This document shows positions 2,476 to 52,200 of a DNA stretch of 64,000 nt, one piece after another (the first letter of the stretch is position 1; each line of letters starts with the position of its first letter). The stretch covers positions 37,487,000-37,550,999 of the forward strand of contig NC_054866.1 of NCBI RefSeq assembly GCF_018320785.1, in the 5' to 3' direction. A program made the position numbers and the translations under genes. Below the pieces are notes generated by a model. It ran no database searches and was not told the DNA's origin. It was given only the letters and a program-made list of their open reading frames with translations. The DNA comes from Cheilinus undulatus. Lineage: Eukaryota > Chordata > Actinopteri > Labriformes > Labridae.

Positions 2476-5449
<2,974 letters not shown>

Positions 5450-5703
5450 AGATCTCTCAGGACCAGTTTTTCTTTTAACAAACATGGACACAAATACAGG
5501 TTTCTCTACTGTAGACCAAAACTTCAACACATTTTAGATAATGACTGTTGTTGCACAGTTGAAGTTTCCTCCAAGATTACATGTAAGTATACACACTCTG
5601 CTTAAAGCTGCTTTGATTCATCCAAGAACTCTGTGTCCTTATGAAAAATGTTGATTCTTTGGCTTTTTTTATTTTTTATTTTGTTACAAATTTGTCATAA
5701 AGC

Positions 5704-5762
5704 ATTGCACCCAGAGTCTGGTCTGCCAGACATTGTACCTGGAGCTTTTTTACTGAATTAAA
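5704..5762 (+). promoter_or_regulatory. snrpa: U1A polyadenylation inhibition element (PIE) and poly(A) signal
   Basis: The 3' UTR has ATTGCAC at 5704-5710 and ATTGTAC at 5732-5738, separated by a GTCTGG (5716-5721) / CCAGAC (5726-5731) hairpin. Eighteen bases later comes ATTAAA at 5757-5762, the likely poly(A) signal, followed by a TTTGTG word. In vertebrates two U1A molecules bind an AUUGCAC-type and an AUUGUAC-type box in their own 3' UTR and block poly(A) polymerase, lowering U1A output. Both boxes, their order of spacing and the signal distance fit that element. The motif match is direct; function is inferred from the known mechanism. Confidence 0.9.
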
Positions 5763-5789
5763 AATATTCCTTTGTGACCATGCTTTGCC

Positions 5790-46200: not shown

Positions 46201-49200
46201 TTTAAATGTGATCAGGTGATTTTAGATGTTGAATATTGTACAGAGGTCACTGCTGGAATTCCTTTGTTCATCTTTCTAAAGGATTATTGTTGTTTTTGAT
46301 GGTCAACACTTTTGCACCATGAGTGAAAAGAGTACTTCCTGAAAATGAGTTTGACTGCCTGACTTCCACTTGCAGTGAAAAATTTAACTATTTTCTGTTA
46401 ATTTCATCGATGAGGGAAAATCAAGAAGGTGTGGAAACTAATGCCGATACTTCCCTTGCAAGCATTGTTACAGGTGTTTCTGATGAATACCACTAGTGGG
46501 AGGGAATCATAAATTACACTTTTCATATTATTGTATTAGACTGCATTGAAAGCGTTAATTATTTTTACAAGCTGAGAATAACTCAAATTACATGTATTTC
46601 AAAGAAAACCTTAAGTTAGACAAGGTTAGTCTTGTTGAATCTACTTGAAAATGTAAGTAAATTTCACTTAGATTTTTTGTTCCTGAACTAAAACAGAGTA
46701 GTAGTCTAATCTACAAGAAAAAATGATGCAACAAGTCGCCTAGGTTTTTTTTTTTCTATGTAGATTGGGCTGAATATTTTTTATCAGTGTGGGTTATGAA
46801 CTGCTTAACAGTCATGTGTTCTCCTTGCCAGATTTTTTGCTTTATGATTCACTATTTTTTTCTTTTGATAAAAGGTCTGGACTAAAGGCAGACCACTTCA
46901 GCACCTGGACTCTTCTACAGTGAAGCCATGCAGTTTTGATGGGTGCTGTATGTGGTTTAGCACTGACTCGCTGAAATATGGAAAGCCTTCCCTGAAGACA
47001 TTGTCAGGATGGGAGAACCTCTAAACACTCTCCGGCATTGATGGTGTCTTTCCAGATGTTTAAGCTGCCCACACCATAGGCACTAATGTAACCCCATAGA
47101 TGTAGACTTTTGAACTGTGTGCTGATAACATGCTGGATGGCCCCTCTCCTCTTTATTCCACAGGACACGGTGTCTGTGTTTTTCAAAAAGAATTTCAAAT
47201 TTGGATTCATCTGACCACAGAACAGTTTTTCATTTTGCCCCAGTCCATTTTAAATGAGCTTTGGATTTCTGGATCATGTTTACATATTACTAATTATTTT
47301 AATGATAGAGCCTTACCTTGCATTTATGGCAGATTGTGTTGACAGACAATGACTTATGTAGTGTTCCTGAGCCTATGCAGTGATTCCCAGTACAGAATCA
47401 TACCTGTTTTTAATGTAGTGCTGCCTGAGGGCCCAAAGATTATGAGCATCAAGTATGACCTTTGACCTTGCCTGTTGTGCACAAGGATTTCTTCAGGTTG
47501 AATCTTGATGATATTATGTACCATATATGGTGGGATTTTCAAAGTCTTCACAATTTTACGCTGAAGAACATTTTCTGAAATAGTTTCTAAACCAATTTTT
47601 AGATGCAGTTTTTGGCAGATTGATAAACATCTGCCTTTCTGTACTTATGAGAGTCTCTACCTCTTTAAAATGATCCTTTTATGTCCAGTCATGTTACTGA
47701 CCTGTTGCCAATTAACCCTATTAGTTGCAAAATGCTCCTTTAGCAGTTTTTTAGCAGCCTTTTGCTGCCATGTCCCTTTATTTTTAACATGTGTGACTGC
47801 CATTAAATTTAAAATGAGCTAAGACTTTTCATGAAATGGTAAATGTCTCAGTTTCAACATTTGATATTTTATGTCCTATTGTGAATATAATTGGGTTTAT
47901 GAAATTTGCAAATTGCTGCATTCATGGTGTGCAGATGGCCTAGTGGTCTAAGGCACAACCCATGTATGCGGGCGGCCCGTGTCTGAATCCAGCCTGTGGC
48001 CCTCTCTCCCCACTCTTGTCCCATTTCTGACTCTATCCTTTGTCCTTCTATCGAATGAAGGCACTACAAAGCCAAAAAAAATGGCTGCATTCTATTTTCA
48101 TTAACTTTTTACACAGCGTACCAGCTATTTTAGAATCAGGTTTGTACTTCATATGTGTGTTTGTTTGTTTTTTAAATGTTCATTAGGCTCAAGTGCATTT
48201 ATTTAAACTGCTAACTAAAGCAATAAAAGATTAGGTAACAAGTTAAAAATATACAACTCAAAGTGTCAGATTGCTGTTAAGATACTAAATTTACACAACT
48301 ATAAATTATTTATATAAACAGCTACTAAAATAAGAGAATGCCCTTCCCCTGTGTCTTAATTAAATAAGCAATCTTTAATTGTATTGTGCAAATTCTTAAC
48401 CAAAGTTATCGAAAGACAAGAAGACATAACTCTTTGACAAATTATTTATAAAGACCCCACATCAATTATGATGAGCTCAGCACTGAGTAGCATAGCAATG
48501 CTACAGTGGCAAGAAAAACCTTCCTTTTGACAATCAAAAAGGAGTTGAAGCATACATCTCTCCATTATCTGTAGTTATTCTGTTTAGGGTTGCAGGGAGT
48601 TGAAGCCAATCCCAGCGGTCACTAGGTAATGACAGGGTACACCCTGGACTGGTTGCCAAGCAATCACACGGCTGATATATAGAGACAAACACCCAGGCAC
48701 ACTCACACCTACAGACAATATAGAGGCACCAGCATTTCTTTGGTATGTTGGAGGAGAACAGAATACCCGAAGAGAACCCACCGTGCACTGAGGGAACATG
48801 CACATTTCAGACAGAATGGCCCTGTCTGACAGGGATTCAAACCAGGAACTTCCACGCTGTGAGATGACAGCACTAACCACTGCAACATGATGCAACCAGA
48901 GTTGAAGCAATATTTGTGGCTATGGATGTGGCTGGGGCGACTTTGGCTGAGTAGGTAGAGTTGGTAGTCTCTTCACTCGAGGCTCATGGGTTCATGGTCC
49001 CATATCGATTTTTTCATTCAAACCTTTATTTATTCTCAAAAGGACATTGAGGTTTCCCTCATTTCCAATGCTGTCGAAATTACAGGCATATTAAAACCAC
49101 AGCACAATAAAACAAAGTACAGTATATAGAAACAATCACTTCGACAACAACATCATCAGTGACAAGGTAGATCAAATCAAATCAAATCAGATGTGTCGAT

Positions 49201-52200
49201 GTGTCCTTGGATAAGATACGCTATTCTAAATTGCTCCTACCACTGCATCAGTAGTGTGTGACTGAATATAGACGACTTGAAAAAACATTACACAAGCTCA
49301 AGTACAAGACCATTAACCAATTTCACAATTTAAACAGTATTCCCCATCCCTTTACTTCTTTATGCTCTGGACATGCAATTCACAAATCACTCTACAGATG
49401 CATTTAAAAATAGTTCAGCAACAGTTAAAGCTCTTTAAAGGGTCAGTAAATAGAGTAAAACAAAGCATTCTGATGAGAGTACATCAGTGTTATAATATGA
49501 TGCATACAGTCATAGTTTCATTGATTAGTTTTGATTAAGACAATTTAAAGAAAGTCCTGATTTATCTCAAATTGTTTTATTATTTCCAAGAGTTTTAATG
49601 TAATTTATTTATGCACTGAAAATATAGAGCCGTGTTTGTTTGGTAAACCTCCAGTAATTTAATTCCAGCTAATTACTCGCACAGCAGGTCTGCTGAACAG
49701 TCAATACTATAAAATGAGTCTGCCGCCAGCACTATTAAACATATTCTAACAACAAAGTGATAAAAACACATGAAGGATGAATGACTTCTAACTTTTCTTC
49801 AAAGTTTTTAGTAACCAAGTTCTGGATCACCATGTAAAATGTGTGCATAATTATAAAACTACAAAGAAACTCAATGATGAGTTTACATGGCATTTAAAGC
49901 TGAGTCCGCAGCTGAACTTCAGAGAACATTATAGTGATTTTCAGAACACTCATTGTTCTTGTATTGCAGTTTTTGGATGCTGCAGACTGCTGTTTTCAGA
50001 GAATAAGCCTTAAAGACCTACTGTGAACTTTCAGCTCAGCACTAAAGAGCAGACAGATACAGACCTCTGGTATCTGATGACATGATGTCTGTATTGCCCC
50101 CACCCAGACAGCAAAGGGGATATTTTACTTACTGGATACCAGTGCTAAATAAACACTCTTGTCCCCAAATGCCCCACAGTCATCTGTAATCCTCAGTTTT
50201 AACCAGGGTTATCTGCTGTTGTACATTGCACACCAGCATGCAAAGCATGGAAAGAAGGCAGAAATGGATCACAGCTAAAAACAGAAGAATTAGCAGCCAC
50301 AATGTCTACACATCTGGGGGGCTGGGAGCCTAGTGCCAACAACCATGCACCCCATGTGCATAGACTTTGTACCGAATGAGTATTTTATTCACAATGTAAC
50401 ATAAACAACATACCATGTTTATCACTGTGAAGTATCCCCTCATCTTTTAACAACAGTCTGGAAATGTCTGCGAGATGAGGAGATCAGTTACTGGAGTTTT
50501 GAGAGAGGAATGTTGTCCCTTTCTTGACTGATGTAGGATTTCAGCTGTTCAGAAGTTCTGGGTCTTCTCTGCCTGATTTTTTTCATTTTATGATGCCTCC
50601 AATGATTTCTACTGATAAAGGTCTGGACTGCAGACAGACCAGCTCAGCACCCAGACTTTTCTACTATGAAGCCATGCTGTTGTGATGGATGCAGTGTGTG
50701 ATTTAACACGGTCATGCTGAAATATGACAAGCATTCCCTGAAAGAGACGTTGTCTGGATGGGAGCATATGCTGCTCTTAATCCTCTCTATACTCGTCAGC
50801 AGTGATAGTGCCTTTTCAGGTGTGTAAGCTGCCCACGCCATAGGCACTAATACAACCCCATACCATCAGAGATGCAGGCTTTCAAACTGTGTACTGATAA
50901 TAAGCTGGATGGTTCCTCTCCCCTATTTCCCAGGACATGGTGTACATGGAAGAATTTAAAATTTTGATGTATCTGACCACAGAACAGTTTTCCATTTTAA
51001 ATGCTACTTCTTTGCATGAGTAAGAAAAAAGTCTACACGCACATCCGAACCTAGGTGGGCAGGTGCTGAGCCGAAAAGGAGACTTACAGGGAACAGAAAG
51101 ACGTCTCGCACACTGCAGGGCTCCAAGATATAATTATTTATTGCACCAACGTGACGTTTCGAGCAGAGTAGCTCTTCATCAGACTAAGAAATATCATGTT
51201 GGTGCAATAAATGATTATATTTTGGAGCCCTGCAGTGTGCGAAATGTCTTTCTGTACTTCTTTGCATGAGACAGCTGTAACTTGCTGAATGGCATGGCGA
51301 TCTGTGTTGGCAGACAATGATTTCTTAAAGTGTTCCAGATCCCATGCAGTGATTTCCAGTACAGAATCATTCCTGTTTTAAATGCAGTGCTACCTGAGGG
51401 CCCGAAGATTACAACCATCCAGTGTTGACCCCAAACCATGTCCCTTATACAGAGACGTCTCCAGATTCTCTGAATCTTTTGATGATACTATGAACTGTAG
51501 ATGGTGGGATGTTCAAAGTCTTAACAATTTTACACTGAAGAATATTTTCTGAAACTGTTTCTGAACCAATTTTTAGATGCGTTTTTTGTCAGATTGATAA
51601 ACCTCTGCCTATTTGTACTTTTGAGAGGCTGTGCATTTCTAAAATGCTCCTTTCATATCCAGTCATGTTACTGACCTGATTCCAATTAGCCTACTTAGCT
51701 GCAAAATGCTCTTCCAGCAGTTTTTCATAAGTACCACTTACTTTTCCAGCCTTTTTTGCCCTGTCCCTACTTTTTTTGTTTTTTACTTGTGTGACTGACT
51801 GCTATCAGTTCAAAATGAGCTAGCTTTTTTTGATGAAATGGTACAATGTCTGAGGTTCAACATCTAATATGTTGTTTAGTTGCTTCTGTGAATAAAATAT
51901 GGGTTTATGAGATTTGGAAATAATTGTTTTCTAGTTTCATTTACATTTTGCACTATGTTCCAACATTTTTGGAAGCGAAGTTTTCTTTATTTATGTATTT
52001 ATTTATTTATATTTTAGGACAAGTATGAAGCAAGTAAACCATTGCTAAATACTACAGCATTTATAGCCAGAGCTCATTTTTCAATGCTTTTCCACAGTTG
52101 GGCCTTTAAAAGACATGAAATTCAAAATAAAAGCCCCACAGAAAAGAAATTGGTGCCCTGTGTGAGCACCATTTTGTTCATCAAGTTCAGTGTACCAACT

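Follow-up and report, generated by a model that had tools for sequence, protein, structure and literature searches.

A short Penelope-like insertion with a hammerhead-like core in Cheilinus undulatus, probably made by two-ended target priming

How a small insertion comes to be a palindrome with a tail on one side only, and what sets the points at which its arms begin and stop, are questions raised by a 234-bp insert (51021-51254) in a 64,000-nucleotide stretch of Cheilinus undulatus DNA (assembly GCF_018320785.1, contig NC_054866.1, positions 37,487,000 to 37,550,999; 'the window', to which positions refer unless a copy is named). The insert is a near-palindrome between exact copies of a 16-bp duplication (TACTTCTTTGCATGAG, at 51005-51020 and 51255-51270). 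It is probably a short insertion of a Penelope-like element (PLE) made by two-ended (twin) target priming, on an RNA whose 5′ end may have been set by a TATA promoter or by hammerhead cleavage; this reading takes in its architecture and duplication, the PLE protein remnants adjoining related copies, two outer-end positions, variable junctions, variants shared between arms and two clusters of ends, each observed in this genome.

The insertion, its host repeat and its family

The arms of the insert (51093-51160 and 51188-51255) are 68 nt each, 90% complementary and separated by a 27-nt spacer, and its minus strand folds with z = -12.8 against 200 shuffles; microRNA-like Rfam matches were rejected, as they reflect the long hairpin and lie far below gathering scores. 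When joined, the flanks align across a sister Tc1-like site in 72 of 98 columns (73%), where the duplicated stretch is single and the insert absent, in agreement with the first-pass annotation of this DNA, which had claimed exact boundaries and a sister copy lacking the insert; the sister copy has ∼50 extra bases of its own immediately before the insertion site. The interrupted relic (50562-51921) resembles a stretch at 46816-47913, and one of its translated pieces scores 23 bits against HTH_SB (Sleeping Beauty), under the cut-off of 43, while two further pieces are without a transposase match; beyond this similarity and weak score, the Tc1-like label is one that we presume. By eye, two other copies (L020, around 3882-4175, and L052; L numbers denote copies) are insertions of the family in the same kind of Tc1-like repeat at other positions; L020 is without a clear duplication, and TTCTTCTTTGCATGA is present once in the host repeat beside L052 (also by eye).

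A search of the 1.17-Gb genome with the whole insert gave 87 matches from the best 40 of 335 candidates. This query biased the first sample towards palindromes, and rates were therefore taken from queries with the tail only: the union of three such searches, with 40 scored matches each, yielded 65 distinct tail-anchored copies. Each search scored the best 40 of 148-179 candidates, so that the rates given below are valid for the best-matching tails.

In longer relatives the direct arm forms part of a larger terminal unit, extending upstream, in which a TATA box (TGTATATAATGAGG) is present; the name pLTR is used for this unit by analogy. Upstream of the insert's terminal unit and tail, copies L041 and L036 carry a 119-aa open stretch scoring 20.4 bits against GIY-YIG, just under the cut-off of 22.6; it has 22 protein relatives, and two of the four scanned (71% and 70% identical) pass the Pfam cut-off. 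In copy L023, the stretch that separates an inverted from a direct unit contains reverse transcriptase (RT) pieces of either orientation, scoring 21.8 bits against RVT_1 (cut-off 29.6); one of them has 12 protein relatives, 36-76% identical, including a 68% identical protein in Epinephelus coioides with a precomputed RVT_1 assignment. These remnants can be read only as broken pieces, the RT and GIY-YIG parts in different copies. Because they adjoin the terminal unit, and because the family has all three structural features looked for, namely an inverted pLTR, a one-sided tail and a target duplication, the insert family is placed among the PLEs, as the earlier annotation had proposed. The more specific label 'Neptune-like', and the motifs that we take to be of PLE RT type, are assumptions of ours. 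A GIY-YIG stretch in L040 (1435-1773) apparently belongs to another PLE family of the same genome, and a further GIY-YIG match, in L039, may be what we take to be the host gene SLX1.

Two other parts of the earlier proposal do not hold. A retrozyme-like element was rejected: the stretches read hold single or head-to-head copies with a common tail and no tandem ribozyme-bearing monomers, whereas animal retrozymes, similar in having a hammerhead core within a small repeat of retroelement origin, are tandem monomers giving rise to circular RNA in the cited part of their description (PMC7229834). Nor is a separate non-autonomous family indicated; the same unit and tail adjoin PLE protein remnants, and the insert therefore appears to be a truncated product of that machinery.

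Outer ends, shared variants and the priming of both arms

An inverted arm, defined by a score of at least 14, a position within 330 nt and an outer end 45-125 nt from the tail end, lies nearby in 29 of the 65 copies; as the arm search was limited to 330 nt, the long inverted copies L023 and L028 fall outside the 29. The outer end of the arm is 52-71 nt short of the end of the tail alignment in 23 of these copies and 85-112 nt short in the other six. In the copies seen, the tail thus forms one outer end, and the opposite outer end is usually that of the pLTR, an arrangement not predicted by simple fold-back copying. Duplications scoring at least 9 flank 33 of the 65 copies, including 24 of the 29 with an inverted arm; 26 score at least 11, and 20 of these are 13-17 bp long.

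For the insert itself, the following course is proposed. The PLE protein would cut both target strands ∼16 bp apart; one target 3′ end would start cDNA synthesis at the tail end of the RNA, and its counterpart would do so at the pLTR end, ∼65 nt further upstream in the same RNA. Both cDNAs would extend towards the RNA 5′ end, halting there or earlier, and the joining of their 3′ ends would leave a head-to-head palindrome with the tail on one side and the duplication outside. The RNA 5′ end may be set in one of two ways, through transcription from the TATA promoter of the pLTR or through a minimal hammerhead, located just downstream, that cleaves read-through RNA.

An inverted arm could also arise by self-priming, in which the first cDNA doubles back to serve as its own template or, as proposed in the cited part of a 2013 rotifer study, an antisense RNA primes its own copying (PMC3846280). 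Palindromic junctions are frequent, and the rotifer authors favoured self-priming on an antisense template (PMC3846280); the variants shared between arms, described below, would also follow if one arm served as template for its partner. A folded-back cDNA should, however, include the tail. With the distance condition removed, an antisense match scoring at least 14 is found in 33 of the 65 copies, and not one of the 33 begins in the 45 nt next to the tail end; the outer ends of 23 of the 29 arms instead recur 52-71 nt inside it, and no opposite-strand tails lie within 5 kb of each other among the 65. These observations bear on the cDNA version and address the antisense-RNA version less directly; taken as a whole, self-priming appears unlikely.

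Some copies sit awkwardly with priming at two fixed sites. In L015 and L080, for example, the arm begins further inside despite abutting duplications. Other arrangements were also seen. In L038 and L084, taking the longer arm as reference, the roles are exchanged, with an inverted tail on the left and a direct unit ending at the pLTR end. In L030 and L032 the part that folds back lies beyond the pLTR on its upstream side, and the usual arm is not involved. In L019 (3841-4152) a single insertion changes several times between sense and antisense orientation around the ribozyme core, as repeated jumps of the copying enzyme would produce.

Whether the palindromes arose one by one can be judged from their junctions. 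Among 24 palindromes there are 23 distinct pairs of inner and sense ends, so that most or all of them arose independently. This is a strong counterpoint to the idea of a non-autonomous palindrome that is mobile in its own right, its copies descending from a palindromic master in the manner of a miniature inverted-repeat transposable element (MITE); the same two outer ends are common to many copies, as such a unit would have it, yet 36 of the 65 copies with the same tail are without a nearby arm by the criterion used (a few having very short or distant arms). A mobile palindrome is accordingly very improbable, and a MITE-like palindromic DNA element was rejected, as the copies do not share one internal junction.

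The arms of a given insertion also resemble each other more than chance pairing would allow. Arms belonging to one insertion have 22 minority states in common, where shuffled pairs average 7.6 and none of 2000 shuffles reached the observed number; with CpG columns removed the figures are 19 against 5.0. For 24 of 28 palindromes (four were dropped for too few shared columns), the mean arm-to-arm distance is 0.104 within and 0.138 between insertions (0/2000 shuffles reach this). These results indicate that both arms tend to derive from one source RNA type, or that they were homogenised later. The partner arm is not always the closest, 30% of other copies' arms being closer on average, which weighs against the proposed course. 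Overall, two-ended priming fits the data better than either fold-back copying or a mobile palindrome.

Stopping points and the hammerhead-like core

The ends at which copying stopped were placed on copy L028 as reference, where index 424 is the start of the TATA box and hammerhead cleavage would be expected between 488 and 489. Within the range 440-530 there are 50 ends, 27 from the 'simple' group and 23 inner ends, the remaining 15 of the 65 ends lying outside and being dropped; the simple group of 41 includes short-armed palindromes (e.g. L053, L059, L067 and L080). Two positions are preferred, one ∼32 nt after the TATA box and one no more than about 2 nt from the scissile bond predicted for a minimal hammerhead without helix III. 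At 451-459 there are 17 of the 50 ends, against 5.0 expected if uniform (p = 3e-6), and at 487-492 there are 13, against 3.3 (p = 1.5e-5); a 5-nt window scan beyond the first cluster places 13 of 32 ends at 487-491, which none of 5000 simulations reaches. Individual copies illustrate such ends: the 17-bp duplication of L064 stops one base before GTTGG, and the arm of L042 stops at the scissile base.

The motif that defines this second position was part of the first-pass annotation. On the minus strand, 51182 to 51153 reads CTGATGA-A-GAGC-TACTCT-GCTC-GAAAC-GTC; the claimed order of CTGATGA, a perfect 4-bp stem II and GAAA within an inverted duplication of the terminal unit is upheld, with the qualification that one extra A separates CTGATGA from stem II and that the pattern alone is not significant, 1.5 chance matches being expected per window. 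As this rate makes a single motif weak, the weight of the core comes from its conservation in the family. Of the 26 copies, among the 65, that span the core, CTGATGA is exact in 20, GAAA in 21, both in 15, and both with GTC in 14; relatives lacking the core had been named as evidence against the ribozyme, and the family is mixed in this respect, with the 15 copies on one side and the remainder on the other. Core columns are 97% conserved in the spanning copies and non-CpG columns downstream 93%, a small difference in decayed copies. The core, aligned over 12 longer copies, is without helix III; a possible distal stem I (TTGCAC/GTGCAA) was noted by eye, and predicted folds are mixed. PLE hammerheads are reportedly the subject of a study from 2014.

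The covariance search suggested by the earlier annotation gave no support: no Rfam hammerhead family matches at E≤10 in 50500-51800 or in eight relatives, none exceeds its gathering score in the whole window, and a genome search with RF00163, in which 73 of 144384 candidates were scored, was without a match, the controls being equally silent. The Rfam covariance test is weak in this setting, since PLE hammerheads are usually minimal and without helix III according to the cited part of a review (PMC6155905). With no Rfam match, self-cleavage at the core is a putative activity.

Further points weigh against cleavage and a TATA-directed start as the source of the two clusters. The single position with most ends is 2 nt downstream of the expected bond; the sense 5′ ends of the palindromes cluster weakly, with four of 21 at 451-459 (p = 0.046) and three of 21 at 487-492 (p = 0.35); and the end windows were chosen once these copies had already been inspected. 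Three fresh copies, all palindromic, have inner ends at 489, 506 and 460, placing one in the hammerhead window and none in the transcription start window. In L037 and L082, a 3-nt insertion lies two bases past the expected bond (GTC^AC-TAT and GTC^AC-TAC), where many ends fall.

The second cluster might instead mark a second transcription start (at TCACG) or a stop of the RT, and this alternative is a possibility of some substance, if a doubtful one. TCA resembles what we take to be an initiator; the motif is without helix III, has an extra A and lacks an Rfam match; and the 3-nt insertion in two longer copies may mean that the spot is unstable for other reasons. A second start would, however, have no TATA box 30 nt upstream, a stop of the RT would be expected near index 481 if caused by stem II and near 500 if caused by stem I, and the cluster lies within ∼2 nt of the site predicted from the motif. 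If ribozyme cleavage does operate, RNA begun at the TATA-directed start would be without most of stem I, so that only read-through RNA could cleave; such a restriction would explain two kinds of 5′ end.

Table 1. Features of the insertion and its host repeat (positions in the window)
Feature	Position	Strand	Basis
Target-site duplication, left copy, 16 bp	51005..51020	.	Exact repeat
Target-site duplication, right copy, 16 bp	51255..51270	.	Exact repeat
Whole insert: inverted arm, direct arm and tail in minus-strand reading	51021..51254	-	Repeat and family comparison
Inverted arm, antisense copy of pLTR end; outer end 51254 is the putative cDNA start (RT site 1)	51188..51254	+	
Direct pLTR arm; 5′ end at the putative transcription start of the family (reference index 456)	51093..51187	-	
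Tail, terminating ..GTAGACTTTTTTCTTA at 51021; putative RT site 2	51021..51092	-	3′ end common (± a few bases) to 65 tail-selected copies
Hammerhead-like core CTGATGA-A-stem II-GAAAC-GTC; expected scissile bond between 51153 and 51152	51153..51182	-	Sequence and family alignment
Tc1-like relic hosting the insert	50562..51921	-	Similarity to 46816-47913; HTH_SB below cut-off

Elsewhere in the window, RF00460 (U1A polyadenylation inhibition element) at 5695-5770 (75.8 bits) is the sole Rfam match above its gathering score.

Known systems and the record left by junctions

The principle proposed has counterparts in different elements. In LINE-1 twin priming, two target 3′ ends prime on one RNA, the inverted segment normally not being a repeat of the direct segment, and in R2 a self-cleaving ribozyme sets the 5′ end of the element.

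Among PLEs, an inverted pLTR with tail and duplication is an already known structure. Penelope elements of the rotifer Adineta vaga (e.g. Pen2a_Av) are alike in their inverted pLTR, optional one-sided tail, duplication, pLTR TATA box and palindromic junctions; in the cited part of that study duplications are 8-10 bp, whereas 20 of the 26 well-scored duplications here are 13-17 bp and many copies are under 250 bp (PMC3846280). A biochemical parallel is the Poseidon element PAc of Anolis carolinensis: in vitro its protein cuts as well as extends both target strands, and the element has GIY-YIG and RT domains, a tail between two RT start sites and a hammerhead at the junction of pLTR and open reading frame (PMC11167929). 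The cited part of the Anolis study describes no strand difference, no need of the ribozyme for insertion, hammerhead cleavage only with protein added, and no reads ending at the cleavage site (PMC11167929); in contrast, a start at the tail site on both sides is seen in no copy examined here, and the expected scissile site has a cluster of ends near it. The junction footprints may be new, as no report on PLE junctions at a hammerhead site or on PLE twin priming was found among open-licence literature by title and abstract opening.

The papers cited leave unsettled what keeps minimal hammerheads in PLEs and why inverted pLTRs with a one-sided tail are found in their copies, and short insertions with readable junctions make both questions testable from genome sequence alone. 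The chances are evenly balanced that these junctions record the PLE cycle in living animals, in which case the target strands would prime at two fixed sites in the RNA, one each, and hammerhead-cleaved RNA would be a real template for insertion, with the ribozyme setting many of the 5′ ends.
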